DNA of 54,541 nucleotides, taken from positions 1 through 54,541 of IMG/VR virus record IMGVR_UViG_3300025133_000137. The stretch is one strand, 5' to 3'. Below, piece by piece: positions 15,560 to 32,453 of the stretch. The stretch comes from a virus. The translations under genes were made by a program, and so were the position numbers. The notes under the pieces are model-generated. The model saw only the letters and a program-made list of their open reading frames with translations, searched no databases and had not been told where the DNA came from. Each line of letters begins with the position of its first letter. The first letter of the stretch is position 1.

Positions 15560-15575
15560 GTTCTCTCCTGGGGGG

Positions 15576-18026: not shown

Positions 18027-18289
18027 CGGTCCCTCCGAGGGCTGGGTTCAAAGAGTCCATCTAGGTCCTCGGGAGAAAACTTAAGGATCTTATTCAGTTG
18101 AGTAAAAAATTCCATGGGCGTTTCTAATATCCACACAGGCTTCTTCCTTCCAAGAAGCCATAGTGCTAGAGCATGAGAAGATTCAACTGCTACGATATGG
18201 TCAACGTTCACCCATAGAAAGTTCGAGGGCGTTACCATATTGTTAGGGCAGTCTGGGGTGACTTGGATAAAGCGAAGTTCGGATTTCAT
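18023..18289 (-). CDS. Hypothetical protein upstream of polymerase
   Basis: An 88-residue protein of unknown function. It is a mixed alpha/beta sequence starting MKSELRFIQVTPDCPNN, with a central IVAVESSHALALWLL and an ending rich in Arg. Its stop overlaps the polymerase start (ATGA), so it is co-translated with it. AGGAGAATG precedes its ATG. A short phage polymerase accessory role is possible but unsupported. Confidence 0.65.
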   Translation of the reverse strand: MKSELRFIQVTPDCPNNMVTPSNFLWVNVDHIVAVESSHALALWLLGRKKPVWILETPMEFFTQLNKILKFSPEDLDGLFEPSPRRDR

Positions 18290-18309
18290 TTCATTCTCCT
18301 AAACACAAA

Positions 18310-18366
18310 CATCCCCCCTCCCGAGGAGCAGGGAGACATGGGAAACCCAAGGCAGGAGGGGGGATG
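18310..18366 (-). terminator. 12-bp perfect inverted repeat, terminator or attenuator hairpin
   Basis: CATCCCCCCTCC (18310-18321) pairs perfectly with GGAGGGGGGATG (18355-18366). The 33-base loop contains a small inner TGGG/CCCA pairing. Read leftward it lies after the ssDNA-binding candidate and is followed by a T-rich run (TTTGTGTTTAGG). It fills the only sizeable gap (93 bases) in this part of the operon, so it probably lowers transcription into the polymerase gene or protects the upstream mRNA end. Confidence 0.65.
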
Positions 18367-18382
18367 CGAGTGACTTGATATA

Positions 18383-18970
18383 CTACAGATCGATGAAGTC
18401 TAAGGGGTCGGTTGTATCTGTTTCTGGGGTGGCTGGCCGGACAACAACTGGAGTTCCGTTGTCCCCTTCGTCCACTTCTTCCACTTCAATACCACTGGTG
18501 TCTTCTGCGAAGCTGGCTGCAAGAGCCGTCAATGTTTCGTATTGCTGAGGAGTGAGGAACTTCTTGATAGGCCATTCATGTTCATTGATGGCAGGCTCAT
18601 ACTCATAGTATGCTACCTTCCCTACACAGTTCTTCTTGCACCAAGCAAGCAGAGTAGTCTTGCCGGTAACCTTTCCAGTAAGCTTACTCTCACCAACACC
18701 CATACTGAGCAGTGCTGTCTTCCAGAAGCTCATCCGCTGGAAGTACTTCTCCTCTCCTAACTCTGCCCGGTCAAGGATGTTAAGCCCATCTCGCACAGTG
18801 CAACCCTTATGCTTACCTTCATCAACAACCATGTTGAATTCAATACGCTGGTTCCCTGCGTTGGTTTCTCGTTGGCTAACCGAGATGACTCGGGTTCGGT
18901 AAAGACCCTTCTCAGGGATGGGTCGGACGCTACCAGATGCAGTAACGCCAGTAAAATCTAATTCGAACAT
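18383..18970 (-). CDS. DUF669-like protein, putative ssDNA-binding protein
   Basis: A 195-residue protein. The N-terminal 130 residues are a beta-rich domain (YRTRVISVSQRETNAGNQRIEFNM) resembling the DUF669 family of phage proteins found beside Sak-type recombinases and thought to bind ssDNA. The C-terminal 45 residues are acidic and low-complexity, ending in DPLDFIDL. An acidic tail with a hydrophobic tip is typical of SSB proteins that recruit partners. It is 9 bases downstream of the Sak4-like ATPase. AGGAGAACAT precedes the ATG. Confidence 0.7.
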   Translation of the reverse strand: MFELDFTGVTASGSVRPIPEKGLYRTRVISVSQRETNAGNQRIEFNMVVDEGKHKGCTVRDGLNILDRAELGEEKYFQRMSFWKTALLSMGVGESKLTGKVTGKTTLLAWCKKNCVGKVAYYEYEPAINEHEWPIKKFLTPQQYETLTALAASFAEDTSGIEVEEVDEGDNGTPVVVRPATPETDTTDPLDFIDL

Positions 18971-18978
18971 ATGTTCTC

Positions 18979-19908
18979 CTAGAGTTCAACAGTTTCAAAA
19001 CTGTCTATGAATGTATTGATTATGTTTGTATTGTGGTACGCTAGTCTTGCCCGATCGAATGCATCTGACAAGGCCCACCGTACATGTTTCTGATTCTTAT
19101 CCTTTAGCTGATTAGCTACTTTAGTTAGTATCTTCTTATAGTCAGGGTCCTCCTTTCTCATCTCTTCTAGTATCACTGGGTAAAGTTTATCGACTACCTT
19201 CTCTGTCCACCCAAGCTCCTTGGGTCGAGGGAGGGAGTAGCCTGCTGCAATCAGCATCTCTCTAAGGTTCAGGGAGAAGATACCGGGACAGATGCTCAGC
19301 CTGTCTCCAGTCACGTAGTGCTCATCCGGTGCTACCTGATAAACATATGGCCAACTCCCACCATAGTCAGGGTTGTAAGTAACCCTAGCTACGAAGTCTA
19401 CCAGGGCTGGTAGCTTCTCGGGTAGCTTATGCCCACCGATGGACGGAGAGCCGGGGATGTACTTAACCCCACCTACCTTCTTAACCTCACGAGGAGGCTG
19501 CTCATGCATGGTCAGGAACACATGGCATGGGAGCTTACGAGCTAGGTCACGGAACTCACACACCCTGTCGGATAGGACAGCGTATGCATCCCATACAATC
19601 TTGTGTGTCTTACGTAGCTTAGTGAGTTCAGCATCAGCGATGATACTAAAGTCATCAATGATGATGGCAGAGTACTGAGCTACATTGGTTTTCTTATCAC
19701 TTAGAACTTGAAGCAGTTGCTCCACGTCCACTGCTTCTAAGCAAGCAGGCTCCCAGTCGATCCAACTCTTACATGAGAGTCCTCCCCTTGGAGCGATGAA
19801 CAAGCCATTCGGGAATGCTCTCAAGGTTGCTAAGGTTTTACCTGTCTTTGGTCGTCCGTATAGGATACCGAACACAGGGTTTTGTTTAGAGTTACTTCTA
19901 GCGTTCAT
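18979..19908 (-). CDS. Sak4/RecA-like phage ATPase (AAA_24 type)
   Basis: A 309-residue ATPase. The Walker A GRPKTGKT is at residues 18-25 and the Walker B AIIIDD at 81-86. The sequence matches the RecA-fold, Sak4/AAA_24-type proteins common in phage recombination modules, which work with an SSB to anneal or pair single strands. I chose ATG 19908 (MNARSNSK) because GGGGAG lies about 7 bases upstream and it follows the nuclease stop by one base; the longer frame overlaps that gene. Its neighbours, a Cas4-like nuclease and an SSB-like protein, complete a recombination set. Confidence 0.8.
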   Translation of the reverse strand: MNARSNSKQNPVFGILYGRPKTGKTLATLRAFPNGLFIAPRGGLSCKSWIDWEPACLEAVDVEQLLQVLSDKKTNVAQYSAIIIDDFSIIADAELTKLRKTHKIVWDAYAVLSDRVCEFRDLARKLPCHVFLTMHEQPPREVKKVGGVKYIPGSPSIGGHKLPEKLPALVDFVARVTYNPDYGGSWPYVYQVAPDEHYVTGDRLSICPGIFSLNLREMLIAAGYSLPRPKELGWTEKVVDKLYPVILEEMRKEDPDYKKILTKVANQLKDKNQKHVRWALSDAFDRARLAYHNTNIINTFIDSFETVEL

Positions 19909-19909
19909 A

Positions 19910-20737
19910 CTATTCTCCCCACTTACAAATGTTTGCTTTGGGACATTCCCCATACGGTGTCCAACAGGCTGTCTCGTGATAGACTGCGGGCCATTCATTA
20001 GGAGGAAGGTCTTTGTACTTCCTGATTATTCTCTCTGCGTATATGATTGTTTGTTTTAAGTCTTGTACTGCTACTGGTGCTGATTCTAATGTTGGTCTTG
20101 TAAACTCGAATTTCCCATCGAGGCTCTTGGGGAATTGTAGCATGTTCAGCATCACCCCTGCAAACTTTTTACCCCACAATTTTCGACCGAACAACTGATA
20201 GCCCAGCATCTGACCGGACAATGCGTACCGCTTGACAACCTTCGGAGCGATGCGTGCCGTGGACTTGTGGTCGATAATGTGGACGTTTCCACCCTTGTCC
20301 GCAACGATGAGGTCAGCTCGCTGAGTATACAGGTAGGTCGTATCTAATTCCTCATCATAGACATTAGCCCTAAGCTCCCTCTCTACCCCTAGTATCTCCC
20401 ACTGTTCTGCATTCCAATGGAACTCATAGTTCTCTACAACCCTTTGAGCTATCTCTGCAAACTGCATCCAAAGCTCACTACCTGTTCGAGCGTACTCCTG
20501 AATGGACAAACAAGTAATAGCTTCCCCTGCTCTGTACCATTCATCGGGGTCTTCCCCTCTCTGCTCTGACTGCATCCGTTTGTAGTGGTGGGCTAGTCCT
20601 ATGTGAACAAGGGCCCCCTTCACTAGAGCGGGCTTATCCCAATCTGTTCCTAGTGCATAGAGTCTAGGGCATCTCAATACTGTCTGTAGTCTATGCCATC
20701 CTGCTTCGGATGGTCCTGCGTTAAGTAACTTCTTCAT
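19910..20737 (-). CDS. Cas4/RecB-like PD-(D/E)XK exonuclease with Fe-S cysteines
   Basis: A 275-residue nuclease. The RecB-type motifs appear in order: VHIGL with His45, RADLIV with Asp142, IDHKS with Asp156/Lys158, and SGQMLGY with the Q-x3-Y pair near 176-180. Cys23 plus three C-terminal cysteines (CWTPYGECPKANIC) are placed as in the AddB/Cas4 Fe-S cluster. I chose ATG 20737 because GAGGA lies 6 bases upstream and it overlaps the stop of the zinc-finger gene as ATGA; ATG 20755 has no ribosome site. Likely a recombination exonuclease. Its first residues are duplicated upstream (see the 23-bp repeat). Confidence 0.82.
   Translation of the reverse strand: MKKLLNAGPSEAGWHRLQTVLRCPRLYALGTDWDKPALVKGALVHIGLAHHYKRMQSEQRGEDPDEWYRAGEAITCLSIQEYARTGSELWMQFAEIAQRVVENYEFHWNAEQWEILGVERELRANVYDEELDTTYLYTQRADLIVADKGGNVHIIDHKSTARIAPKVVKRYALSGQMLGYQLFGRKLWGKKFAGVMLNMLQFPKSLDGKFEFTRPTLESAPVAVQDLKQTIIYAERIIRKYKDLPPNEWPAVYHETACWTPYGECPKANICKWGE
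20706..20728 (-). repeat. 23-bp direct repeat, copy 1 (inside nuclease start)
   Basis: These 23 bases are identical to 20919-20941, 213 bases away. Here they encode residues LLNAGPSE near the N-terminus of the nuclease. The second copy encodes the same peptide in a short leader frame upstream of the zinc-finger gene. Confidence 0.95.
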
Positions 20738-20919
20738 GATCTTCCTCGGTGCCATGCGATGATGGCTAAATCTTCCGCAACTTTTTTCCGTTCTTTGTGT
20801 ACATTTAATAGTTCCTTCCCACTCTTTTTTGTGGTGCAGGGGTCATACTTCTTCGCGCCACACTTTGGGCAGTCTCGCATTAGGCTGTACTCATTGGGGT
20901 CGGGCCAACTACTACTCAT
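20734..20919 (-). CDS. Small zinc-finger protein (C-x2-C-x7-C-x12-H)
   Basis: A 61-residue protein with C17, C20, C28 and H41 in the order CPKCGAKKYDPC...VHKERK. This pattern is seen in small phage and actinobacterial zinc-binding proteins and as a module attached to nucleases. The start at 20919 overlaps a 13-codon leader frame and has only a weak ribosome site, so it is probably expressed by coupling. It is flanked by the two copies of a 23-bp repeat and appears inserted between the methylase gene and the nuclease. Confidence 0.7.
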   Translation of the reverse strand: MSSSWPDPNEYSLMRDCPKCGAKKYDPCTTKKSGKELLNVHKERKKVAEDLAIIAWHRGRS

Positions 20920-20953
20920 CGGATGGTCCTGCGTTAAGTAATTGCTTAGTCAT
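20912..20953 (-). other. 13-codon leader frame, apparent remnant of the nuclease start
   Basis: ATG at 20953, 1 base after the methylase stop and behind a good AGGAG, reads MTKQLLNAGPSDE and stops at 20912-20914. The nuclease itself begins MKKLLNAGPSEAG. The leader therefore looks like the original start region of the nuclease, cut off by insertion of the zinc-finger gene and now able to couple translation into it. Confidence 0.6.
20919..20941 (-). repeat. 23-bp direct repeat, copy 2 (leader frame)
   Basis: Exact match to 20706-20728. It lies in the leader frame and its end contains the ATG of the zinc-finger gene. Confidence 0.95.
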
Positions 20954-20954
20954 G

Positions 20955-21503
20955 CTATCTCCTGGGTAGGTCAGTTGCAGTTGTGAACTGTGGGACACGT
21001 CGAGACTCATCGAAGATCAATAGACAAGACGGAGCAGGAGCAGTCCCGCTGAACTTAGGCCCAAGAGGTGAGCCGAACTTGATTCTACCCTTGATAAGCC
21101 GTATCTCTGCTGCCTTCATAGCCCAGTCATGCCACCACCTAGTGTCACTACGGACAAAGGTGAGCACCACAACAGTGCAACCCTTCAAGCTTTCCCGGTA
21201 AGCTTTCTCTATCCACTTACCTATGTCCTTTCCATAGGGGGGGTTAAGCCATACCGCACCAGTATAACCAGTCATTTCCCTTGCCCAATCAAAGTGAAGG
21301 GAACCCTCGATGGTATTCCAGCCTTGACTTAGGTCACAACTGTGTCTTGCAATGTAATGGAGGCACTTAGCATTCTCGGCAGTAGCCGCTGCGTCTAACC
21401 CAAAGCTAAACTCCTCATGCAGTGCATCGTACAAAGCTTGGGGGGTTTCCCAGTCCTGTCTCTTCGATGAGTGTAATTGATCTTCATTCCATGCTGTCGT
21501 CAT
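20955..21503 (-). CDS. dam: Phage DNA N6-adenine methyltransferase (Dam type)
   Basis: A 182-residue enzyme. NPPY at residues 87-90 is the catalytic motif of adenine-N6 methylases. The N-terminal SKRQDWETPQALYDALHEEF and GLDAAATAENAKC are characteristic of the small phage Dam family (about 170-200 residues), in which the latter segment binds S-adenosylmethionine. It likely methylates phage DNA against host restriction or marks replication. No partner endonuclease is present. The gene ends 1 base before the leader frame that precedes the zinc-finger gene. Confidence 0.88.
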   Translation of the reverse strand: MTTAWNEDQLHSSKRQDWETPQALYDALHEEFSFGLDAAATAENAKCLHYIARHSCDLSQGWNTIEGSLHFDWAREMTGYTGAVWLNPPYGKDIGKWIEKAYRESLKGCTVVVLTFVRSDTRWWHDWAMKAAEIRLIKGRIKFGSPLGPKFSGTAPAPSCLLIFDESRRVPQFTTATDLPRR

Positions 21504-21511
21504 CCTCTCTC

Positions 21512-21706
21512 CTAGTGTGGTTTAGGTGGACCTTGCTCACGGTTAAAGGGACCTCGGCTTGCATAAAGCTTAGTTAAAAGCCAGAACTCTGCTTGAGCTT
21601 TACGCGGTCGAAGATCCCGTCTTGCGTGTTCAGCTAGCGCGTCAGCTTCAGCCGGGGTTAGGTGGACCTGTAGGATTACAAACCCTTCCTTCTTGTTAGT
21701 TCCCAT
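21512..21706 (-). CDS. Small protein, possible ribbon-helix-helix fold
   Basis: A 64-residue protein. The opening strand-like GFVILQVHLTP followed by two helices (AEADALAEHARRDL, KAQAEFWLLTKLY) matches the strand-helix-helix layout of Arc/CopG-type DNA-binding proteins. The next gene upstream has the same layout. A DNA-binding role is inferred from this pattern only. Confidence 0.6.
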   Translation of the reverse strand: MGTNKKEGFVILQVHLTPAEADALAEHARRDLRPRKAQAEFWLLTKLYASRGPFNREQGPPKPH

Positions 21707-21709
21707 ACT

Positions 21710-21913
21710 TTACTCCTCCGTTGGGTAAATAATATTCTCTCCATCATTCAATAAGCCTTGACGAACGTACCGAATGATTTGTTTAGACCGTCCTCTATCC
21801 TCTCGATCAGCTATTAAATCAAGTGCAGTTAGGAGATGCTTAGGCATACGTAGGGTTACAAACCCTGAACCTTTGCGTCTCCATTCAGTCTTGACCTTCT
21901 TCTTCCGAGCCAT
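21710..21913 (-). CDS. Ribbon-helix-helix (CopG/Arc-like) DNA-binding protein
   Basis: A 67-residue protein with a basic N-terminus (MARKKKVKTEWRRK), one strand (GFVTLRMP), and two helices (KHLLTALDLIADRED, RSKQIIRYVRQGLL). This is the ribbon-helix-helix plan: dimers place the strand in the major groove and bind short palindromes. It overlaps the helicase stop by 29 bases. It is a candidate binder of the GGTGWCACC palindromes found in three promoters of this genome. Confidence 0.72.
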   Translation of the reverse strand: MARKKKVKTEWRRKGSGFVTLRMPKHLLTALDLIADREDRGRSKQIIRYVRQGLLNDGENIIYPTEE

Positions 21914-23516
21914 CTTGTACCTCCATTAGTTGTAGGATGTCTGCGATGACAGCATCCTCATCCTGTTCTCCTGCTAGCGTACTGGCTAAGCCAGCCGCTT
22001 CACTATCGTTTAGCGTACTACTCACTGCTTCAAGCTTGCCGAGTAGGATGTCAGCTACGTGCTCATCCACTGTACCCTCGGCTACCATGTACATAATTAG
22101 GACCGGACGAGTGGAACCCTTACGAGAAAAGCGTCCCTCTGCTTGGGTTACTTGTCCTGGGGTCCAGGGTAGTAAGGAGAAGATAGCTAGGTCTGTATGC
22201 TGTAGCCCATCTATCGCCTCACCGAAGGCATCGGTAGTACCAACGAAGATAGACGGCTCCTCGCAGGCAGCGTAGGCTGATACCATACTATCCCTTTCCT
22301 TAGTACTAACCCCACCATGACCCCACCATAAGGGAACATGATCGGGCTTCTTCTTCTCTAAGGCTGCGGCTATCCTCTCACAATCCGTACGCCGTCCGGT
22401 AAAGATTACCACCTTCTGCTTAGCATCGACAGCTTCGAGTACTGTCTCCACTACATAGGCCCGCTTCCTACTAGCAGCCTCTAGTAACCTCATCTCGAAG
22501 AGAGCTTGGACTCCGCTCTTGGCTGCTCGCTTAAGGTCAGCAGCAAAGGCAGCGGGTCTGTTCTGGTCTGCCCTGGACAGGTAGCATAGCTGTCTTCGCT
22601 TAGGGGGTAACTGCTTTGCCATCTCTGCGTACTTCACTACATGGCAAACCTCTTGGAGCCTAGCCTGTAGCTCTTCCTTATTCGACACACCGTTCTCATC
22701 CCAAGCTCCGTACTGGTTTTGAACTGCGTCACAATATCTCTTCTTAAACTCTAAGCTATGCCCCCAACAGTTAGGCTCAATCAAATCAAGTTGAGCCCAA
22801 AGGTCACCAAGGACATTACGGATAGGGGTAGCTGTTAAACCTAACCGACGCCTTGCAGCATGGGATAAACGCATAGCCGCAACAGCGATGTTATCAAGCA
22901 GACGATAACCCACAGAACCATCGCTTCTGATATGTTTCTCTTTACGCTTCCAACTCTTAGCCTTATGAATCTCATCGAACACCACCGAGAATCTGTTTTG
23001 TTTACCCCATCGAGTTAGCTCCCCTACCCAGTAGGGTAGGCACTCCCAACCAATGATGACCATGCGTACTTCTTTCCCTATCTTCTTGGGAGTCTGCCCC
23101 TCTAAGATTAGGGGTTGGATAAAAGATAACCGCTCTACCTCTCGCCTCCACTGTCGTCTAGCTGTAGCTCTAGTTATAATTACGATAGGTCCACCCCAGG
23201 CATCACTAAGGGACCAACAGATAGAGGTTGCAGTCTTACCAGCACCACAAGCGTGCCAAAGGTTAGACCCTAGTCTATCTTGAGCGTAGTGCCATGCTTC
23301 CTTTTGATAGTCGGTAAGCCAATCAGGAACCCAATCCCTTAGGGCTTTAGAAGGCTTGTCCCAAGGGGGCTCTGACTTAGCTTGGATAGGCTTACGAGTT
23401 AGTAGGTTACGGCAGTTAACCGGAGGCCCGACAGCTACGTCGGACCTCCTTACCTTTACTCCCGGTACATCATAGAGATACCGAGAACTAACTGAAGAGC
23501 TATACCTTAGCCGCAT
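21885..23516 (-). CDS. Superfamily-2 DNA helicase
   Basis: A 543-residue helicase. It shows Walker A GAGKTATS, the DEIH box (VVFDEIHKAK), motif III GLTATPIRN and motif VI QAEGRFSRKGS, all in order, as in SNF2/DEAD-like phage helicases. The second RecA lobe has KQKVVIFTGRRTDCERIA. I chose ATG 23516 because it follows an extended AAGGAGGAGAAGG; the frame extends upstream to 23549 with a poly-Arg stretch but no better site. It lies upstream of the recombination genes and probably serves replication or branch migration. Confidence 0.88.
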   Translation of the reverse strand: MRLRYSSSVSSRYLYDVPGVKVRRSDVAVGPPVNCRNLLTRKPIQAKSEPPWDKPSKALRDWVPDWLTDYQKEAWHYAQDRLGSNLWHACGAGKTATSICWSLSDAWGGPIVIITRATARRQWRREVERLSFIQPLILEGQTPKKIGKEVRMVIIGWECLPYWVGELTRWGKQNRFSVVFDEIHKAKSWKRKEKHIRSDGSVGYRLLDNIAVAAMRLSHAARRRLGLTATPIRNVLGDLWAQLDLIEPNCWGHSLEFKKRYCDAVQNQYGAWDENGVSNKEELQARLQEVCHVVKYAEMAKQLPPKRRQLCYLSRADQNRPAAFAADLKRAAKSGVQALFEMRLLEAASRKRAYVVETVLEAVDAKQKVVIFTGRRTDCERIAAALEKKKPDHVPLWWGHGGVSTKERDSMVSAYAACEEPSIFVGTTDAFGEAIDGLQHTDLAIFSLLPWTPGQVTQAEGRFSRKGSTRPVLIMYMVAEGTVDEHVADILLGKLEAVSSTLNDSEAAGLASTLAGEQDEDAVIADILQLMEVQDGSEEEGQD

Positions 23517-23883
23517 CCTTCTCCTCCTTCTCCTTAAGGATAAGATCACGCTGGTGCTTAAAGATTATATCTCTTAGGATGAGCGTATCCTCCATGTCCA
23601 ACGCCAGATTCTTTATGAGATAGTTTAGGAACTGTGCCCATATCTCTACGCCGTTACCCTCCAGCCATGTCCAGAGGAAATCTAACTCCCCTTGTTCATA
23701 GTCAAGCATGTCGGTGATGTCAGAGTTATTGTACTCCCATTCAAGAGTGTCACTAACTTCAATAGTAACAGTGAAGTCCCCTTTTATTTTCCCCTCTGTT
23801 ATCGTAACGTCTCCGTTAAGATCGCTACCATCTATGAATTCCTCTACCTTACCCTCTACAAATACTTCTCTAGTTCCACCCAT
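23500..23883 (-). CDS. Hypothetical acidic protein
   Basis: A 127-residue acidic protein. Residues 1-50 look like beta strands (FVEGKVEEFIDGSDLNGDVTI), the rest helical (LDFLWTWLEGNGVEIWAQFL), and it ends in a lysine/glutamate helix that overlaps the helicase start. TTAAGGAGG precedes the ATG. No family is recognised. Confidence 0.65.
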   Translation of the reverse strand: MGGTREVFVEGKVEEFIDGSDLNGDVTITEGKIKGDFTVTIEVSDTLEWEYNNSDITDMLDYEQGELDFLWTWLEGNGVEIWAQFLNYLIKNLALDMEDTLILRDIIFKHQRDLILKEKEEKDAAKV

Positions 23884-23884
23884 C

Positions 23885-24127
23885 TTAAGCCTCCTTAAAG
23901 TTATAGTAAAAGCGTGGCCGGTGTTGGAATTGTAAGCTCCCCTCTACGTTATCAGCCTTACGTCTAACCACAACATAGGGAGCACCGAACCCCACTACAC
24001 TGAAGTCCTCTTGCAGTTGTGCGGTATCCCATACCTGACCTACCCTATCTTCTAGCTCCTCTCTCTCTGTTGCGTTTCTGTTTGTGTGTGCTACCAGTTG
24101 TCGTCTCAATTGTTCTACTTCGTTCAT
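23885..24127 (-). CDS. Hypothetical protein
   Basis: An 80-residue protein reading MNEVEQLRRQLVAHTNRN. I chose ATG 24127 because GAGGAGGT lies 7 bases upstream; an earlier ATG at 24151 overlaps the neighbour. A helical N-terminus is followed by a strand-rich half (FSVVGFGAPYVVVRRK). It belongs to the run of small early genes. Function unknown. Confidence 0.65.
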   Translation of the reverse strand: MNEVEQLRRQLVAHTNRNATEREELEDRVGQVWDTAQLQEDFSVVGFGAPYVVVRRKADNVEGSLQFQHRPRFYYNFKEA

Positions 24128-24128
24128 G

Positions 24129-24524
24129 CTATACCTCCTCTCTAAGTTCATTCTGGATCTCTCGGTTCATACACTCCGCTTCTTGCCTAGCTACCGGATG
24201 CCATAGGGAATTGATTGGCTCACCTGGTTTGTAGTTATCTCGTGCCCATCGGATAAAGCTCTTCTCCTCTTCCGAAGTAAGGTTACGAAATAACTTAGCA
24301 TCCGCTTTCTCTTGCTTTCTCTCCCGAACAAAATCAAGAGCAGACTTATCCCCAATGAATTCAAAGTCAGCGTTACACCTGAATAATGTTATCTCTGTGT
24401 GGTTATTGTCCTTATCTACAAGGATAATGGTTGTGACTGGGAAGGTATCTCGCTCCCCTCGTGTCTCGCGGGTGCTAACCCCGACTGCTTCAATATGATG
24501 TAGGTTTATATTTATGTTACTCAT
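24129..24524 (-). CDS. Hypothetical protein
   Basis: A 131-residue protein. The N-terminus is beta-rich (NININLHHIEAVGVSTRE, then FPVTTIILVDKDNNHTEITLF) and the C-terminus helical. Residues about 85-100 (FRNLTSEEEKSFIRWARDNY) and the closing Glu-rich helix have no recognised partner. It is the first gene after a 148-base gap that may carry a processing or terminator element. Confidence 0.65.
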   Translation of the reverse strand: MSNININLHHIEAVGVSTRETRGERDTFPVTTIILVDKDNNHTEITLFRCNADFEFIGDKSALDFVRERKQEKADAKLFRNLTSEEEKSFIRWARDNYKPGEPINSLWHPVARQEAECMNREIQNELREEV

Positions 24525-24672
24525 CTCTACTCCTCGTTCTCTGGTTTCTTCTTAGGTTAAAATGGGGATGAGACACCTGATTAAGTGGAATCACAACCAC
24601 TACGGTATGCCTCCCTGTCCGGCTTGGCAGTTAGCTGGCCCTTCCCCAAGTACCAGCTAACCAATCCCTCCC
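24525..24672 (-). other. Intergenic gap with two hairpins
   Basis: No gene is seen here. GTTAGCTGG (24630-24638) pairs perfectly with CCAGCTAAC (24653-24661) across a 14-base loop, and AGTGG (24584-24588) pairs with CCACT (24597-24601). Neither is followed by a T-run in the leftward direction, so they are more likely RNA-processing or stability elements than terminators. I checked for a tRNA and could not fold one. Confidence 0.5.
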
Positions 24673-26055
24673 TTACCCAATAGGTAAAAGGATTCTGTTG
24701 TTCTCTGCTTGTTGTAGTCCTCGGTGAAGAAGCTCACCACCAAGACGTTCCAACTTCATCTGCTTACCCAAGTTAATCTGCTCGTGAGCCACGTAAGTGA
24801 TGGCGTCAGGAACACTAGTTAGCAGCCGACCGTTACCATGAACAGTAGGGTTGTTCAGCATAGTAGTACGGATCTCTTCTTTAAGTCCGGTAGTCATCCA
24901 TGCTGTATTCTCTACCATAGTTTCAAACCACTTATAGGCATCATCAATCTCAATAATAAGAGAATCATTGTAAGCCTTAAGCAATCCGTTAGCATCAATT
25001 AGCATGTCTTCAACAAGACCTGGGAGGTCACGACGGATACGAGAACCACTGTCCCCAGTGTGGTTCCAACGCTTAGTAGTCTTAGCATTGAAATGGTAAC
25101 AGCCGTTACTACACCACTTATTGAAGATGCTAGGAGCGAAAAGAGAACTACCATCCCCATAGATCCCATTCCTTAAGGTCAGAGCGGGAACAGGAACACC
25201 TACTTCATTGTTAGTATAGGCATCTTCTACGTGGACCAACTGAACATGAAGCCTACCATCCCGACAATCATATCGGATGACATGCCAATCGTTTAGGTCT
25301 TCACCAAGACACATGATAACATCTTTAATGTAAGCGCTATTATCATAGGTCGAGTAGGTCTCACTTAGCATAGCATTTAGATGACGCCTTCCATCCTTTC
25401 CCAGTGCAGTACGAAAGAGGTGGTTCTTATTGTAGTGTGTACGAAACAAACCCATACACATTTCCGTAAGCTTATCTCCACCCCGTAACCGAAGCTGCCT
25501 ATCCCATGTCCTAAGGGCACCGGCACCCCCTAAACTACTACATAGCTCTCGGTATGCTTTCCGGTTAATCCGGATAGGCTCTCCCCATGCATCGCCCCGA
25601 AACATGAACTGACCCGAAGGCTGCTCACCCTTAAACTTAACGATGAAACCATTAGCATTTCGTAGGTAATCCTGAGGGTCCTCCTTCTCTTCAAGGTCTT
25701 CGAGGTTAGCCAAGACTTCTTCAAGAGTCTTGGTAGTGAACTGATCCCGAGCACTAGAGAACTTCCGTCCTCTCATGTTAGCAAAGTCTTCCTCTTCCTC
25801 TTCCACAGAAACAGGGGGGGTAGGGGGTTCGATAGACCTAACTTCAAGGTTAGTACTAGTAGCTGTTACAGGTACTAGCATACGAGTAGGCACTTCCTTT
25901 GCCTCGATAATATCAGGTTCTTCTTGTTCTATAGTCACGGTGTCTGCTTCTTCTTCAATCTGCCCACTAAATCCGTTGTCCCTATAAAACTGCATAGCTT
26001 CTTGAGGATTAAGGTTAGGGTGGACTACTCCATTGGGGTCGATGTAGGATAGCAT
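24673..26055 (-). CDS. DUF932-like phage protein
   Basis: A 460-residue protein. Residues 1-110 are acidic and low-complexity. The remainder resembles DUF932-type phage/plasmid proteins: ALTLRNGIYGDGSSLFAPSIFNKWCSNGCYHFNAK-type layout, where a conserved turn is followed by CxNG, and then WNHTGD. The molecular function of that family is unknown. It has its own promoter of the shared three-box type at 26129-26158 and a leader hairpin, so it is probably made in quantity early. Confidence 0.65.
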   Translation of the reverse strand: MLSYIDPNGVVHPNLNPQEAMQFYRDNGFSGQIEEEADTVTIEQEEPDIIEAKEVPTRMLVPVTATSTNLEVRSIEPPTPPVSVEEEEEDFANMRGRKFSSARDQFTTKTLEEVLANLEDLEEKEDPQDYLRNANGFIVKFKGEQPSGQFMFRGDAWGEPIRINRKAYRELCSSLGGAGALRTWDRQLRLRGGDKLTEMCMGLFRTHYNKNHLFRTALGKDGRRHLNAMLSETYSTYDNSAYIKDVIMCLGEDLNDWHVIRYDCRDGRLHVQLVHVEDAYTNNEVGVPVPALTLRNGIYGDGSSLFAPSIFNKWCSNGCYHFNAKTTKRWNHTGDSGSRIRRDLPGLVEDMLIDANGLLKAYNDSLIIEIDDAYKWFETMVENTAWMTTGLKEEIRTTMLNNPTVHGNGRLLTSVPDAITYVAHEQINLGKQMKLERLGGELLHRGLQQAENNRILLPIG

Positions 26056-26100
26056 GAATGCTCCATTAGTATTGTTATTGTTAGGGAAAGGTTGTTACCA

Positions 26101-26124
26101 ATGCCGGCTCTCGTTGACCGGCAT
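26101..26124 (-). promoter_or_regulatory. Leader stem-loop of the DUF932-like gene
   Basis: ATGCCGG (26101-26107) pairs perfectly with CCGGCAT (26118-26124) around a 10-base loop. It would lie at the very 5' end of the transcript started by the promoter just upstream (start expected near 26122), a position that protects mRNA from 5' degradation. Confidence 0.55.
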
Positions 26125-26128
26125 CGCC

Positions 26129-26158
26129 AGTGTATCACCAGGTGTCACCCCAGGTCAA
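26129..26158 (-). promoter_or_regulatory. Early promoter P3 with palindrome in spacer
   Basis: Read leftward: -35 TTGACC (26153-26158), 18-base spacer, -10 TACACT (26129-26134). The spacer holds the palindrome GGTGACACC (26141-26149). ATCA begins exactly 13 bases upstream of the -35 (26168-26171). TGCGCCAC (26220-26227) ends 61 bases upstream, with a second TGCACCAC (26200-26207) 20 bases closer. Promoters P1 and P2 share the 61- and 13-base positions. The -35 overlaps the last codon of the preceding gene. Confidence 0.75.
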
Positions 26159-26451
26159 CTCGATTTGTGATTTGCCAGTTTCAAGTACCGATCCCACGAG
26201 TGGTGCATCGGATCGTCAAGTGGCGCATCGGCCAGTGCTTCTTCTATCTCTTCTTTTCTATACTCCTCTACTAATTCTTCTGCTGTATTCTCTTCTGCTT
26301 TAAGTCTTAGGTAATCATCTATTAGTTCTTCTAAGTTTATATCTCCTTCTTGTGTAGATACTACGAAATCGTCTGCCTCAATATCTATCTTGGTACACTT
26401 AAGTGGGGTGATAGATGTTACTTGGTATAAGCACCAATCAAAGTGAGCCAT
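26155..26451 (-). CDS. Hypothetical acidic protein
   Basis: A 98-residue protein with a basic-neutral start (MAHFDWCLYQVTSITPLK) and a very acidic middle (LEELIDDYLRLKAEENTAEELVEE, as two helices). The last 30 residues lie over the upstream control boxes of P3, so their sequence is partly constrained by promoter function. TAATG overlap with the preceding gene. Function unknown. Confidence 0.6.
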   Translation of the reverse strand: MAHFDWCLYQVTSITPLKCTKIDIEADDFVVSTQEGDINLEELIDDYLRLKAEENTAEELVEEYRKEEIEEALADAPLDDPMHHSWDRYLKLANHKSS

Positions 26452-26837
26452 TAGATACCTCCTTCTAGTAAGTGTTGTTCTAGATCCTTGAAAGCTTTAT
26501 CAGGTATGAGGTCAACCCACTCATCCTCACGGCAGCTATAAAGGACACGTCCATAGATGGGGTTACCATTAGCAGTCCATCGACCCTCCTTTCTGCGTTG
26601 ACTTTCAGGAAGTATAATCTCCTTAATCCTAATGATCTCTACTGTCGCTGGACTAGGGGGATTTACCCTATCTCCCGGTACTTCATCTGTATAATGATAG
26701 TGAACGAGAGCCTCTACTGTCTCCCCACTATCCAGCTCTATCTCTACCTCCTCCTTCTCACTACTAACTGTCTCGTAAGGGGTAACCCTCACGTAGTCTC
26801 TTTCATGGTCATGTTCCCAGTGTCTATCTTCTCTCAT
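26451..26837 (-). CDS. Hypothetical protein
   Basis: A 128-residue protein starting MREDRHWEHDHERDYVRV. It has beta-rich segments with Glu clusters and a short aromatic C-terminal part (WTANGNPIYGRVLYSCREDEW). Its final codons GGAGGTATC double as the ribosome site of the following gene. No family recognised. Confidence 0.62.
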   Translation of the reverse strand: MREDRHWEHDHERDYVRVTPYETVSSEKEEVEIELDSGETVEALVHYHYTDEVPGDRVNPPSPATVEIIRIKEIILPESQRRKEGRWTANGNPIYGRVLYSCREDEWVDLIPDKAFKDLEQHLLEGGI

Positions 26838-26839
26838 TA

Positions 26840-27028
26840 CTACTCCACTTTGTACTGTGTTTTTCTAAAGGTAACCAAGTCCCCAGCTATGGGGCTAAAC
26901 GTAAGAGCCTGCACCTCCATCGATGCTTGAGCCCCCTCACGCCAATAGAATCTAATCACTCTTACTGTCTCACTAGGAGCAGCATCTTTGAGGACAGACT
27001 TCAAAGCAAATGGGGGAAGCCTAATCAT
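26840..27028 (-). CDS. Small hypothetical protein
   Basis: A 62-residue protein with alternating strand-like segments (VRVIRFYWREG, ASMEVQALTFSP, DLVTFRKTQYKVE), suggesting a small beta barrel. It overlaps the upstream gene by 8 bases. Function unknown. Confidence 0.58.
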   Translation of the reverse strand: MIRLPPFALKSVLKDAAPSETVRVIRFYWREGAQASMEVQALTFSPIAGDLVTFRKTQYKVE

Positions 27029-27227
27029 TCTCCTTCAACCTCTGTTTGATTAACTGCCCAACTAGGTGGGTTAGCTGCTTAACCTCTTTACGCAAGCATC
27101 CCACCTCCTCATAAACACAGTCGGAATACCACATGGTATCCCTAACAAGTTCATATAGCCTCTTGCCTTCGGGAGGGTTTCTTACTGCGGCTTCTATTTT
27201 ATGGAGATGTTCATTCGGATGTGACAT
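27021..27227 (-). CDS. Small helical hypothetical protein
   Basis: A 68-residue protein, probably helical and coiled-coil near its end (EVGCLRKEVKQLTHLVGQLIKQRL). It overlaps both neighbours by a few bases, which supports it as part of a tightly coupled early operon. Function unknown. Confidence 0.58.
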   Translation of the reverse strand: MSHPNEHLHKIEAAVRNPPEGKRLYELVRDTMWYSDCVYEEVGCLRKEVKQLTHLVGQLIKQRLKEND

Positions 27228-27825
27228 CTTCAGCCTCCGCTATAAAGTCAAAGTTACTAGCGACTAGAAGACGAACCACTTCTGAACGTCGGCTATACTC
27301 CTCCTCCCATGTCATGTCATACTGGGTATCATAGTAGTTAGCTCCGTTATAGTCCCCTTCCTCGATGCAGGATTGCATCGAGTCCCTGTTATCATCAAGC
27401 ATTTCATCAGCCTCAGCTAGTTTCCTAGCTTCATTGAGTAATAGCTTCCACTCTTCACCAAGAGCATGCCACGGCAGGTAATAGCCCGGACCTCTCCACA
27501 TTAGACAAGTAATATACTTCTCAACTAGCTTTTGACTAACTTCAAAGGCATGGGTCTTCGTTAGTAACTGCCGGTCCCCTTCCGTCTGGTGCTCTTGGTC
27601 TTGCATGATTGCATTAGCATCGTATGTTCTATCGTTATCGTAATACTTCCCAGGTAAACCGTGGGCACATCTATGGAGCCGATACGACTGCAAGGTGCCC
27701 TTGAACCAAGGTGCTCGGTTTAGATAAGCATCTAAGATTACATTAGCTAAGAGATCACCCAGAGCCTCTGCTGATTCCGCTTGGAGACAATCTCCCTTCT
27801 CTTGTGCTAACTTTGGGTTATCCAT
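27211..27825 (-). CDS. Hypothetical protein
   Basis: A 204-residue protein starting MDNPKLAQEKGDCL. I chose ATG 27825 because GGAGGG lies 5 bases upstream; in-frame ATGs at 27837 and 27840 overlap the neighbour further. The protein is helical and acidic, with Trp and Tyr clusters (WRGPGYYLPWHALGEEW). No domain recognised. Confidence 0.62.
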   Translation of the reverse strand: MDNPKLAQEKGDCLQAESAEALGDLLANVILDAYLNRAPWFKGTLQSYRLHRCAHGLPGKYYDNDRTYDANAIMQDQEHQTEGDRQLLTKTHAFEVSQKLVEKYITCLMWRGPGYYLPWHALGEEWKLLLNEARKLAEADEMLDDNRDSMQSCIEEGDYNGANYYDTQYDMTWEEEYSRRSEVVRLLVASNFDFIAEAEDVTSE

Positions 27826-28132
27826 TGAGCCCTCCATCACAGTCGGGATCTTCTATGATACCAGCAGCATAGAGGGAGCGTTCAACCTCTTCCCTAGCTA
27901 GCGCATCCTCTTCTTTTCTGTACTCCTCTAGGTCAGGTAGGTTCAGGTTCCTAACTGCATAGGGTAGTTCCTCTGCACTCTCTTGTAGCTTAGAGATATG
28001 GCGTACCTCTGCTACATCCTCAAGCCTAAGTATCTGCCGCTTAACCTTTAAGATAAGAGGCGGGTTGTATATATCGTTTGGGTCTAGTCTCTCTAGTACT
28101 TCTTCTAGTAGTTCTATTATCTGCTGTTTCAT
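27818..28132 (-). CDS. Hypothetical protein
   Basis: A 104-residue protein. The first 20 residues form a clear amphipathic helix (QQIIELLEEVLERLD), followed by further charged helices. It overlaps the Gp88-like gene stop by ATGA and the next gene by 8 bases. Function unknown. Confidence 0.6.
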   Translation of the reverse strand: MKQQIIELLEEVLERLDPNDIYNPPLILKVKRQILRLEDVAEVRHISKLQESAEELPYAVRNLNLPDLEEYRKEEDALAREEVERSLYAAGIIEDPDCDGGLNG

Positions 28133-28950
28133 GCTGACCTCTTCGGTTTGGTTAAGTTAATTGCCCACTCTATGTTCTCTTTTGCTAGCTTCTTCCAGTA
28201 TCCTCTTGCTTTATTATCGTGGTTGATGAACCCTACTACCTCTGGTCCCTCTTCCTTAGGGTCACAAAGCCCACAATTATTACATGTTAATGGCCTTTTC
28301 CCTAAGGCTGTCGCCATCTGCTCATAGCAAACAACCCCTTGCTTACCAGCAGGAGTAGTGAAGGTAGCTCCATTCTCGTTAAGCCAACCAGAAGGTAGGG
28401 TTACTGTCGCTCGACTAAACCCTAGAGCATCTATCACATAGTCAGCTTGAGCGAACAGCCCCATCTTCAGTCCCTTAACAGGGAGAGAAGCACAGTAGAG
28501 GTCTTGATCTCCCCGCCTAGCTACCAGGAAAGGGAAGTGAGTATAGCTAAGCCAACCTAGTTCCTCTTCCCTAACCTTGTCATGAGCAGAGCGTACCTCC
28601 TTAGGGTCACATCTAGCAGAGTCCCCTAGCATTACGTTCCTAACGTACTTAGCTGACCAGGAACGACCAGCTAAAGCTCGGTCAATGGTGTAGTGGGTAA
28701 GTACTTCAGCGTACTTACCTGCATCCTTCCACCTCTTAATCTTCCTAGCCATACTAGAGTGTGCCATCCCTGGTGTACCGGGATGGGAATAGCAGTTATC
28801 ACCGCTGTCAGCATCCTCTCTAGTTGGGTCTAAGGGGCAGCCCTTACAGGAAGCGTAGCTCTCCTCCCTAGTCTCTCCTACATAAGAGACTGGGATAGCC
28901 CCTAGCTTAGTTGCTGTTGTCGCCTTAAGCCACAGTAGTTTAGGTTTCAT
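28129..28950 (-). CDS. Gp88-like phage protein with C-terminal CxxCxxC
   Basis: A 273-residue protein. Cysteines near residues 35-55 (SCKGCPLD, NCYSH) and the C-terminal CNNCGLCDP preceded by EQMATALGKRPLT match the pattern of the mycobacteriophage Gp88-like family, which has conserved metal-binding cysteines and an unknown role. A central YASLPVKGLKMGL-type region is not recognised. The cysteine layout suggests Zn or Fe-S binding. The start overlaps the upstream stop as ATGA. Family membership is judged from motif layout only. Confidence 0.6.
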   Translation of the reverse strand: MKPKLLWLKATTATKLGAIPVSYVGETREESYASCKGCPLDPTREDADSGDNCYSHPGTPGMAHSSMARKIKRWKDAGKYAEVLTHYTIDRALAGRSWSAKYVRNVMLGDSARCDPKEVRSAHDKVREEELGWLSYTHFPFLVARRGDQDLYCASLPVKGLKMGLFAQADYVIDALGFSRATVTLPSGWLNENGATFTTPAGKQGVVCYEQMATALGKRPLTCNNCGLCDPKEEGPEVVGFINHDNKARGYWKKLAKENIEWAINLTKPKRSA

Positions 28951-29177
28951 CGGACACTATCCTTTGGCTTACCTGTTAGGTTGGCTAAGCTTATGTGGAA
29001 CCTACGTTCAGGCTCCGGGTCGCCTTCCTCTACCCTACGGTCTGCTAGCCGTTGGCTTTCCTTCGCTATGGACTGAAGAGATGTTAGTAATCTCTCGTCG
29101 ATAGTCCTGACTACCTCCTCTAACTGCATCATACTTAAGTACAATGCAGCCTCTTGTTCATCCAGTTCGACAGCCAT
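28947..29177 (-). CDS. Small helical hypothetical protein
   Basis: A 76-residue protein, helical in its first 50 residues (LDEQEAALYLSMMQLEEVVRTI), followed by a basic tail. TAATG overlap with the preceding gene and ATGA overlap with the next show tight coupling. Function unknown. Confidence 0.6.
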   Translation of the reverse strand: MAVELDEQEAALYLSMMQLEEVVRTIDERLLTSLQSIAKESQRLADRRVEEGDPEPERRFHISLANLTGKPKDSVR

Positions 29178-29500
29178 TAGATCCCTCCTTCGAAGAGATG
29201 AGTTAGGTCACCTGCTTTTATTGCTGAGTCCCACTCTTTATCAGTCCAGCTAGGGTAGTGCTTAGCTCCTTCAGGGATAACCTCAAGGTTATCGGGGTTA
29301 GCTGCGAGGAATGCCTCAATCCCTGCTTCACTATCAAAGCCAGGGACTACCTGGCATTCATCCTCTAGCTCATCTTCATCACGGTTACGGAGATACTCTC
29401 GTGCCTCCTCTGTAAAGATACCTACCCAACCTGTACCAGGTATACATATCTCTTCTACTTCTACTCCTGCTTCTATGCCTTCTACGAATAGTAATCCCAT
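29177..29500 (-). CDS. Hypothetical acidic protein, first gene after leftward promoter P2
   Basis: A 107-residue acidic protein starting MGLLFVEGIEAGVEVEEI. I chose ATG 29500 because GAGGAG lies about 9 bases upstream; the earlier in-frame ATG at 29548 has no ribosome site. It would be the first gene read from P2, with an 87-base leader. The first gene of an early phage operon is often a host-takeover factor, but nothing in this sequence says so. Confidence 0.65.
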   Translation of the reverse strand: MGLLFVEGIEAGVEVEEICIPGTGWVGIFTEEAREYLRNRDEDELEDECQVVPGFDSEAGIEAFLAANPDNLEVIPEGAKHYPSWTDKEWDSAIKAGDLTHLFEGGI

Positions 29501-29593
29501 CGTCTTCTTCTCCTCTATTGTTTCTATTAATAAATATCTAAGTAGCATATCGAGTGAGCCGGTTTCGTCGTCGGTTTGCTCGGTGCTGGATTG

Positions 29594-29622
29594 AGCTTAT
29601 CGTTCGGTGTCACCGCCGTCAA
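29594..29622 (-). promoter_or_regulatory. Early leftward promoter P2 with palindrome in spacer
   Basis: Read leftward: -35 TTGACG (29617-29622), 17-base spacer, -10 TAAGCT (29594-29599). The palindrome GGTGACACC (29606-29614) lies in the spacer. ATCA starts exactly 13 bases upstream of the -35 (29632-29635). TGCACCAC (29684-29691) ends 61 bases upstream. A partial copy (TGCACCGA, 29664-29671) lies 20 bases closer, as in P3. This promoter would drive the 29500-13784 arm. Confidence 0.78.
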
Positions 29623-29731
29623 GGTTGAATTTGATTCTCGGCGTTGGCTGGTGGTTTTGCAGGTCGGTGCAAATCAGGGCGGCGTGGTGCATCGGTCGTT
29701 TTGAGACATCGGAAAAGGTAACCAATGGCAT
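29597..29731 (-). CDS. Possible 44-residue early peptide
   Basis: ATG at 29731 follows a perfect AGGAGGT at about 7 bases, and the same AGGAGGTACGC element is present a second time 16 bases further upstream. The peptide reads MPLVTFSDVSKRPMHH and ends at 29597. No family is recognised and no promoter is obvious upstream. P2 and its control boxes overlap the coding sequence, so it may be a chance frame behind good ribosome sites. Confidence 0.4.
   Translation of the reverse strand: MPLVTFSDVSKRPMHHAALICTDLQNHQPTPRIKFNLDGGDTER
29711..29724. repeat. 14-bp repeat GGAAAAGGTAACCA, copy 1
   Basis: Identical to 29887-29900. The core GGTAACC is palindromic. The two copies lie in the divergent control region between P2 and P1. 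Confidence 0.85.
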
Positions 29732-29939
29732 CAGCGTACCTCCTATTGGCGTACCTCCTTGTATATCTTTACGTATTGGGAGGGAAGCGGGCAGGCGATA
29801 GGCAAGGTCAGAATCATAAAGCCTTATAATGCCATAGATAAGGGGTCGAATTAGGGGGGTTTGCGCCAGTTGCACCACGACCAGCAGGAAAAGGTAACCA
29901 GCGAAAGGTGACGTTTGCGGCTGAATATCAAAATGGTGC
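29732..29939. other. Divergent control region between leftward and rightward arms
   Basis: No convincing gene. It contains the duplicated AGGAGGTACGC ribosome-site element (minus strand, about 29733-29760), an AT-rich TTATAAT stretch at 29824-29830, the paired boxes TGCGCCA (29862-29868) and TGCACCAC (29871-29878) of P1, and the second copy of GGAAAAGGTAACCA. Confidence 0.6.
29887..29900. repeat. 14-bp repeat GGAAAAGGTAACCA, copy 2
   Basis: Identical to 29711-29724; it ends 39 bases upstream of the P1 -35 hexamer. Confidence 0.85.
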
Positions 29940-29968
29940 TTGCATGGTGTCACCAGCATGACGATACT
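29940..29968 (+). promoter_or_regulatory. Early rightward promoter P1 with palindrome in spacer
   Basis: -35 TTGCAT (29940-29945), 17-base spacer, -10 GATACT (29963-29968). The palindrome GGTGTCACC (29946-29954) abuts the -35. ATCA starts exactly 13 bases upstream of the -35 (29927-29930) and TGCACCAC (29871-29878) ends 61 bases upstream. The layout equals that of P2 and P3. Expected transcript start is near 29975, giving a 44-base leader to the gene at 30019. Confidence 0.75.
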
Positions 29969-30018: not shown

Positions 30019-30786
30019 ATGAAACATTCACTAAACGCGGAATCAACACTGCGCAGAATCGTAGAATCGGCACCTATGTTAGATAAGGTGGGTATGCTCG
30101 AAGAGTGCGCGCATGACTATATATACAATGAGGCTACAACTAGCCCTATTGTAGCGTCGGCAATGAGTACGGTGTTTGCAGAGGTAAATTACAAGCCCAA
30201 CAGGGACGGGGGATTTACCACGTCTAAAGCAAAGCTCAAGGCTCGGCTCATGGGGCAACTGGCGAAAGTGTTAGCCGCCAAAGCAGCGCCACCAAAGAAG
30301 CGGGGATTCGACATCAACGACTACCTACCTGAAAATGAGAAGGAAGAGACCTTCCAATATGGCGGGCTAAGTTTTCAAGGGAAGGACCCATGGACAGAAC
30401 GACCTTCAGAAAAGGTAAAGCCCCCCACACCAGAGACCGAATTAGAACGGCTTCAACGTGAGTTGCGAGAAATGAAGGCTTTGCTAGCCAAGCCCGAAAC
30501 GCGAAAGACAGCCCAACCGGATGTGATCGCATGCAAGCTTACAAAGCTTACCCCATCGGCAGCGGACAAATACCCTGCCACCGTGAATATTAAGGTGTGG
30601 GTAGGAAAGAAGGCTACAAGCTATAAGCTCACATTTGGTGGTGATCTAACGACCTATGACAAGATAGCCGGTCAAAATGTTGTAGTAGACAAGTCCAAGG
30701 TGCTAACTAGTGATGTTCGGAAGGAGTTAGCCCTCGCTTGGGAGCGCGCTACCATGACTTTCGCTAATATTGACCAGTGGCTATAG
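30019..30786 (+). CDS. Hypothetical protein, first gene of the rightward early arm
   Basis: A 255-residue protein. Residues 1-70 are helical and acidic. Residues 70-130 are basic with Pro-rich spacing. A heptad-like helix lies around 140-160 (ELERLQRELREMKALLAK). The C-terminal 85 residues look like a compact alpha/beta domain (VNIKVWVGKKATSYKLTF). GAGG precedes the ATG. No family is recognised. It is read from P1, so it is probably early. Confidence 0.68.
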   Translation: MKHSLNAESTLRRIVESAPMLDKVGMLEECAHDYIYNEATTSPIVASAMSTVFAEVNYKPNRDGGFTTSKAKLKARLMGQLAKVLAAKAAPPKKRGFDINDYLPENEKEETFQYGGLSFQGKDPWTERPSEKVKPPTPETELERLQRELREMKALLAKPETRKTAQPDVIACKLTKLTPSAADKYPATVNIKVWVGKKATSYKLTFGGDLTTYDKIAGQNVVVDKSKVLTSDVRKELALAWERATMTFANIDQWL

Positions 30787-30926
30787 GTAGTCCAGAAGAG
30801 GGGATCACTATCTTCGTATTGGTGGTCCTTTCGATTCCCTGGATACTGATAATACTAGGGATCACACCCTATTAACGAGAACAAATAAACCTAAGAAGCC
30901 CCCACAAGGGGGCGAAGGAATAAAGA
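30787..30926 (+). other. Gap with GC-rich hairpin before the next gene
   Basis: GCCCCC (30898-30903) pairs with GGGGGC (30908-30913) around an ACAA tetraloop, ending 13 bases before the next ATG and next to its GAAGGA ribosome site. There is no T-run downstream on the plus strand. It may tune translation; on the minus strand it is followed by TTCTTAGGTTTATTT and could stop antisense reads. No gene is seen in the 140 bases. Confidence 0.5.
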
Positions 30927-31247
30927 ATGAAACCATTTAATAATACTAGGTCTGATACGTGGCAGAACGATTTGAACACCCGGCGTTTGCTTCGTATGTT
31001 GTTAGAGAATTCCCCTCGTATGGTGGGTATGTTTGAAGTAAATGAGAACGGGTTCATAGACGATAGCGGAGCTTTCTATATCGGGCAGCTAATGCCCCTT
31101 CATGCTAGTGAGGAGCTTTCCCATATTCGGAACAGGCGGATAGATCTCGGAGCAATTGGAGGTGATCGTTACGTGTTTATGTTGGTTGAAATCAATCAAC
31201 TTGAACGCCTCCCCCGATCAATCTTGACCCAACAAGGAGGTGTGTAA
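30927..31247 (+). CDS. Hypothetical protein
   Basis: A 106-residue protein starting MKPFNNTRSDTWQNDLNTRR. It is mixed alpha/beta with a strand-rich C-terminal half (DRYVFMLVEINQLERLP). AAGGAGGTGT near its stop is the ribosome site of the next gene, and the two overlap by one base (TAATG). Function unknown. Confidence 0.65.
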   Translation: MKPFNNTRSDTWQNDLNTRRLLRMLLENSPRMVGMFEVNENGFIDDSGAFYIGQLMPLHASEELSHIRNRRIDLGAIGGDRYVFMLVEINQLERLPRSILTQQGGV

Positions 31248-31552
31248 TGACACCTAAAGCTGACAGGATAGGGAGTGCGATCGGAACTGGTGACGGGGTA
31301 GGTATGGAATCTACCTTGTCTATACGCGAAGGTAAGATCACGCTATACGAGGGCCAGGTCTGGACGGGACCCGGTAGGAGCTATTGGTCGGTATCGCTAG
31401 TACCGCATGGACGCTACACTCAAGTGAAGGAGTTCACGCGAGAGATCGTGGTTCCTCTATGGTTGGCCGAGTTAGCAGAAGCAGCGAGAGGTGACACAAT
31501 GGCCGAAATTCAATTCCTCAAATGGCTACGTGAAGAGGGTATCCTAGACTAG
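31247..31552 (+). CDS. Hypothetical protein
   Basis: A 101-residue protein. Beta-rich middle (KITLYEGQVWTGPGRSYWSVSL) and a helical end (PLWLAELAEAARGDTMAEIQFL). It is the last gene before a rho-independent terminator at 31577. Function unknown. Confidence 0.65.
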   Translation: MTPKADRIGSAIGTGDGVGMESTLSIREGKITLYEGQVWTGPGRSYWSVSLVPHGRYTQVKEFTREIVVPLWLAELAEAARGDTMAEIQFLKWLREEGILD

Positions 31553-31576
31553 TCATCACCAGTCGCTGGTAGTCCC

Positions 31577-31614
31577 TACCTCGCTTGGCCTATGCCGGGC
31601 GGGGTATTTTTATT
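31577..31614 (+). terminator. Rho-independent terminator closing the P1 transcript
   Basis: TACCTCGC (31577-31584) pairs with GCGGGGTA (31599-31606) with one G-U pair and a short inner GGC/GCC pairing; it is followed directly by TTTTTATTT. It lies 24 bases after the stop of the preceding gene. Confidence 0.75.
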
Positions 31615-31800: not shown

Positions 31801-31860
31801 CCGACAGAAAGCTATGACATTTTCTTGACAGATGTAAAAAACCAGGTTCGCTCGTTGCCT

Positions 31861-32162: not shown

Positions 32163-32196
32163 CACCTGTAAAATCGTGGTAATCTTTGTGACGCCC

Positions 32197-32225: not shown

Positions 32226-32249
32226 CTGAACATTCACCCAGGAGAACCA

Positions 32250-32453
32250 ATGCCAGACGAACACCAACACAGCCACCGCTGTCTCACTGTAAAAGAAACA
32301 GCAAGAAGGTTGGGGGTTTGCCCTCACACCGTCTACACCCTCGTCCGTGAGGGGGACCTACCTGCATTCCGCGTGCGCAACCAGTGGCGCGTAAATGAAA
32401 CTGCTCTAGATCAGTACATGAACACCGAGAATCCCACCCCCTCTGCCCCATAG
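32250..32453 (+). CDS. Excisionase/MerR-type helix-turn-helix protein
   Basis: A 67-residue protein. LTVKETARRLGVCPHTVYTLVREGDLPAFRVRNQWRV is the standard winged HTH of the excisionase-type family, split here at residues 12-48. AGGAG precedes the ATG. There is no integrase in the window, so a true excisionase role is unlikely. Position next to the motif array and ahead of the primase-helicase suggests a replication initiator or a local repressor. Confidence 0.85.
   Translation: MPDEHQHSHRCLTVKETARRLGVCPHTVYTLVREGDLPAFRVRNQWRVNETALDQYMNTENPTPSAP

Follow-up and report, generated by a model that had tools for sequence, protein, structure and literature searches.

Shared upstream boxes and a spacer palindrome at three predicted promoters of an uncultured phage

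Among described phage systems, three come closest to the arrangement reported here. At the A3/A2 promoters of phi29, which are divergent within one intergenic region, the p4 protein recognises A/T-rich inverted repeats, binds about 80-100 bp upstream of the start and contacts the alpha C-terminal domain of RNA polymerase. The ribbon-helix-helix protein Arc of phage P22 has its operator between the -35 and -10 elements of Pant, and is not known to have an upstream activator box. In phage P2, the Ogr box lies at about -55, nearer to the core promoter than the box considered here. The four late promoters of phage P2, which carry TGT-N12-ACA, are under the control of Ogr (PMC3931495). In the present work, we analyse three predicted promoters, P1, P2 and P3, that share an upstream box, an ATCA block and a spacer palindrome in IMG/VR record IMGVR_UViG_3300025133_000137; the window, to which all positions and strands refer, is the whole stretch of 54,541 nucleotides. 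In our view, P1-P3 are probably sigma-70-type head promoters of three early-type units, controlled jointly via an activator and a repressor.

Wiring like this is familiar from other phages; the sequences, distance and combination described here are unmatched by anything found in the collections searched. As with Ogr, several promoters of one phage, belonging to separate operons, have a putative activator box upstream of a host-RNA-polymerase core; in contrast to the Ogr promoters, the box sequence is different, it is placed at about -100, the genes appear to be early rather than late, and a putative operator lies in the spacer. TGT-N12-ACA is not among the columns common to the three upstream regions, which give TGCRCCAC and ATCANA. 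The proposed far-upstream activator contact and the divergent promoters recall p4, although the box here is TGCRCCAC, and neither an Ogr relative nor a p4 relative was found among the families matched in this analysis. The likeness to Arc lies in the putative repressor site within the spacer and in the presence of a gene for a ribbon-helix-helix-like protein; the operator sequence, however, differs, and the ribbon-helix-helix binder here is a candidate only.

Elements common to P1, P2 and P3

P1 is on the strand opposite to P2 and P3, and all three have their elements in the same order with respect to the -35 hexamer. The features are listed below, with core promoters and starts predicted from sequence; the coordinates given for the three promoters in a preliminary description all hold when checked base by base.

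29940..29968, + strand: P1 core promoter, TTGCAT-17-GATACT (-35 at 29940-29945, -10 at 29963-29968)
about 29975, + strand: P1 predicted start
29865..29878, + strand: P1 upstream box GCCAGTTGCACCAC (core TGCACCAC at 29871-29878), 61 bp from box end to -35
29927..29930, + strand: P1 ATCA in an A/T-rich ATCANA block, starting 13 bp ahead of -35
29945..29955, unstranded: P1 putative operator TGGTGTCACCA, an 11-bp palindrome in the spacer
29594..29622, - strand: P2 core promoter, TTGACG-17-TAAGCT (-35 at 29617-29622, -10 at 29594-29599)
about 29587, - strand: P2 predicted start
29684..29697, - strand: P2 upstream box GACCGATGCACCAC (core at 29684-29691), 61 bp from box end to -35
29664..29671, - strand: P2 second, partial box TGCACCGA, read directly, 20 bp nearer to -35
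29632..29635, - strand: P2 ATCA, starting 13 bp ahead of -35
29605..29615, unstranded: P2 putative operator CGGTGTCACCG, an 11-bp palindrome in the spacer
26129..26158, - strand: P3 core promoter, TTGACC-18-TACACT (-35 at 26153-26158, -10 at 26129-26134)
about 26122, - strand: P3 predicted start
26220..26233, - strand: P3 upstream box GGCCGATGCGCCAC (core at 26220-26227), 61 bp from box end to -35
26200..26213, - strand: P3 second box ATCCGATGCACCAC (core at 26200-26207), 20 bp nearer to -35
26168..26171, - strand: P3 ATCA, starting 13 bp ahead of -35
26136..26149, unstranded: P3 putative operator GGTGTCACC (26141-26149) with the overlapping palindrome CACCAGGTG (26136-26144), in the spacer

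A sigma-70-like core is found at each promoter, that of P1 being weak and that of P3 being picked up by a promoter scan as well, and the spacers measure 17 bp at P1 and P2 and 18 bp, not 17, at P3. The P3 boxes lie within the 3' end of gene 26155-26451, the stop codon of which is overlapped by the P3 -35 hexamer. The preliminary description had placed the end of TGCRCCAC 61 bp ahead of the -35 hexamer, which begins with TTG[A/C], the start of ATCA 13 bp ahead of that hexamer, and GGTGWCACC between -35 and -10, and all three placements are borne out at P1, P2 and P3; the extra box that it reported 20 bp closer is complete in P3 (26200-26207) and agrees at 6 of 8 positions in P2 (29664-29671).

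The combined pattern TGCRCCAC-N48-ATCA-N9-TT has just three matches in the window, those at P1, P2 and P3. The box extends to GNCMGWTGCRCCAC, of which the window holds three perfect copies, all at these promoters; the second box of P3 and one intragenic copy at 43339 each differ from it by one mismatch. Across the intergenic region between the divergent P1 and P2, the boxes of these two promoters are arranged as an inverted pair. On its own, ATCA carries little weight; its extended form is ATCANA, a block that occupies the position of a proximal UP element and need not be a separate protein box. The palindrome GGTGWCACC is a line of evidence independent of this geometry, with exactly three copies in the 54,541 bases, one in the spacer of each promoter. 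Many equally good matches inside genes had been named beforehand as grounds for refutation, and on this point the outcome favours the finding. At P3, the overlap of CACCAGGTG with GGTGTCACC creates three half-sites, CACC-A-GGTG-T-CACC.

When the three upstream regions are aligned on the -35 hexamer, 20 of 130 columns are identical, as against a mean of 8.3 for triples placed at random on TTG anchors in the window, and the invariant columns spell G.C.G.TGC.CCAC plus a separate ATCA.A. The best stretch of 8 columns is identical at 7 of them, and this value never occurred among 200,000 triples drawn at random from TTG[AC] anchors in the window. It could be argued that the common words were assembled by chance near promoter-like sequence, as the pattern had been hunted by eye and an anchor slack of +/-3 bp lets 1 of 4,000 simulated sets reach 7/8, but the palindrome is confined to three spacers and the joint occurrence is far below chance, which makes this hardly credible.

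Descent from one ancestral promoter module, copied to three places and now decaying so that the common words are leftovers, would explain why the element order is alike at P1, P2 and P3 and why P2 and P3 have slightly more in common (CCGATGCRCCAC). Pairwise identity, however, is only 32-35% upstream, outside the common words, and 27-32% downstream, and the palindrome has shifted relative to -35 with the box distance unchanged. We therefore find recent copying unlikely and the copied module as a whole quite improbable, in agreement with the preliminary description, which had argued against simple duplication; with flanks so different, the geometry gives the impression of having been maintained, not copied. 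The same elements thus recur at several promoters, in conserved positions and rarely elsewhere in the genome, as is expected of a co-regulated set, and the rarity and exact placement of the elements support the common control that had been proposed for the three promoters.

A putative activator and repressor

Under the reading that we prefer, an activator encoded by the phage or its host would bind GNCMGWTGCRCCAC around a centre near -100, a second site near -80 being optional, and would contact RNA polymerase, probably via the alpha C-terminal domain placed on the A/T-rich ATCANA at about -48 to -40. The distance of box and ATCA to -35 would be fixed because the activator touches RNA polymerase. 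A repressor dimer would bind GGTGWCACC in the spacer and block RNA polymerase, and since its site need only fall within the core promoter, the palindrome would be free to float by 0-3 bp; it begins 0 (P1), 2 (P2) and 3 bp (P3) after the -35 hexamer. The rigid multi-box layout claimed earlier thus stands for the box and ATCA and not for the palindrome. Likewise, the suggestion that a single protein complex acts at all three promoters agrees with the fixed position of box and ATCA but not with the floating palindrome, and this difference favours a division into two functions, with activation from upstream, near -100, and repression in the spacer, over one rigid complex. The likely use would be to turn all blocks on together after entry and later to shut them together, with the repressor being produced from one of the P1-P3 blocks. 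That these would be a new activator family, acting rigidly from about 100 bp upstream, and a new repressor with a 9-bp operator, forming a two-protein switch for the whole early genome, is unlikely.

The chief alternative has one protein occupying both the palindrome and the upstream boxes and repressing by looping over about 75-78 bp, with no activator. The inclusion of CACC, a half-site of GGTG-W-CACC, in the box TGCACCAC is consistent with such a protein, as are the extra overlapping CACC half-site in P3 and further GGTG words near P1. Nevertheless, the -61 box of P3 reads TGCGCCAC, in which CACC is broken, the conservation of the box reaches outside CACC (GNCMGWTGCR), and the box is fixed to -35 rather than to the palindrome, the centre-to-centre distances being 74.5, 77.5 and 78.5 bp. 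We regard this explanation as unlikely. A borrowed host regulator, NtrC-like or another global factor, with sites at the boxes or the palindrome is very improbable. The enterobacterial NtrC site is TGCACCA-N3-TGGTGCA, and TGCACCA resembles half of it, but the inverted partner half, at the distance seen in NtrC sites, is absent from all three boxes, and the cores are of the sigma-70 rather than the sigma-54 type.

Three proteins named in the preliminary description are plausible candidates for binding these sites, the ribbon-helix-helix ones by fold only:

21710..21913, - strand: candidate repressor, predicted ribbon-helix-helix fold (weak RHH_1 match and low-confidence model)
21512..21706, - strand: second ribbon-helix-helix candidate, with no Pfam or PHROGs family match
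32250..32453, + strand: HTH_17/excisionase-like DNA-binding protein, candidate regulator in a separate unit

The protein at 21710 is likely to be of the ribbon-helix-helix type, given the strand-helix-helix order of its model and its RHH_1 match; that it would bind GGTGWCACC is no more than conjecture. The fold prediction for the protein at 31247 was uninformative (mean predicted local distance difference test score, pLDDT, 49.5).

Several points weigh against joint control by an activator and a repressor as proposed here. The support for promoter function and for binding comes entirely from sequence, both P1 hexamers (TTGCAT and GATACT) are weak, and significance was computed only once the pattern was already known. 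The RHH_1 match of the 21710 protein (E=0.053) falls below the curated Pfam cut-off, and its model is of low confidence (mean pLDDT 61). Finally, none of the relatives fetched, with the primase, polymerase, helicase and the head genes of P3 and P1, covers 24-31 kb.

Gene units and neighbouring sequence

The units downstream of the three promoters, which appear to be early from their content, are as follows:

30019..31552, + strand: P1 unit, three genes (255, 106 and 101 amino acids)
31577-31606: strong intrinsic terminator after the P1 unit
26155..29548, - strand: P2 unit, nine small genes, mostly without a known family
14318..26055, - strand: P3 unit, a replication block (DNA polymerase I, Sak4-like protein, exonuclease, methyltransferase, helicase)

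The P3 unit also encodes the two ribbon-helix-helix-like proteins. The helix-turn-helix/primase unit has its own intergenic region with a promoter-like TTGCAT-17-TAGGCT (32197), without box or palindrome. Within the P2 unit, the gene at 28129-28950, which encodes a DUF7227-like protein (E=1e-5) common to the distant phages G008 and L095, is the only one seen in common with distant relatives. Outside these units, 2873-10537 encodes a protein of 2554 amino acids with a homologue at 36% identity in the relative G002. Comparison with Pfam, PHROGs and PDB sequences gave no significant match for it, although a distant homologue could be missed. This protein would be the obvious candidate for a virion RNA polymerase with hairpin promoters of the N4 type, a reading that was considered and dropped, as no polymerase match was found.

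Further repeats occur near the promoters. In the predicted P3 5' leader (26085-26122), a 9-bp hairpin is possible by eye (CGATGCCGG / CCGGCATTG), which may perhaps be a stabiliser of the mRNA. The sequence GGAAAAGGTAACCA occurs twice in the P1-P2 intergenic region (29711-29724 and 29887-29900, 176 bp apart), AAAGGTAACCA recurs exactly for a third time at 26867-26877, and matches with at most one mismatch number 8 against 0.78 expected; the repeats do not keep a constant place with respect to the promoters, and they are possibly the site of a further regulator. Convincing genes are lacking from the roughly 700 bp of 31553-32249. This region holds the terminator, the palindromes GCCTGGCCAGGC and CTCTATATAGAG, the inverted repeat CCGAGGACAATATC/GATTGTCCTCGG and recurring GTCCCAG words; two contigs, L004 and L005, start within it, and it is possibly a replication origin or a genome end.

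Relatives and meaning of the finding

The window is probably a near-complete, circularly permuted genome, because its 81% relative G002 (34.8 kb) is joined across the window's ends, its synteny with the window running from 31.7 kb to 54.5 kb and then continuing as far as about 11.3 kb. G002 lacks both the P1-P3 region and the palindrome, and the syntenic stretch of the window is likewise free of the palindrome. The P1-P3 region is also missing from fragments of 96-100% identity (L004, L006, L086, L087 and L088). In L007, with 45% primase identity, the early region is different and the palindrome was not found, and a distant relative of 73.7 kb and two others (33-35% polymerase identity) have no palindrome common to the spacers of separate promoters. 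No close cultured phage was found, and a scan of genome contigs returned only distant primases. Two layout patterns were searched for in 2.9 million viral contigs, a set from which the record of the window itself and very close ones are possibly missing; they matched 2 and 10 times, never with the full layout: the first 2 lie in or among genes, none of the other 10 has the 61-bp gap, and the numbers are about those of a rough chance estimate. Among TTGAC promoters elsewhere (80 of 107 stretches), GGTGWCACC showed no clear preference for a 17-18 bp spacer beyond what the search pattern allowed, and a literature search on the operator letters gave only unrelated papers among its 20 best matches.

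Most genes in the units under P1-P3 are without a known family. The two short DNA motifs described here offer a means to fish out unknown phage DNA-binding proteins, and the arrangement as a whole amounts to a concrete and cheaply testable prediction for the control of early genes in an uncultured phage lineage.

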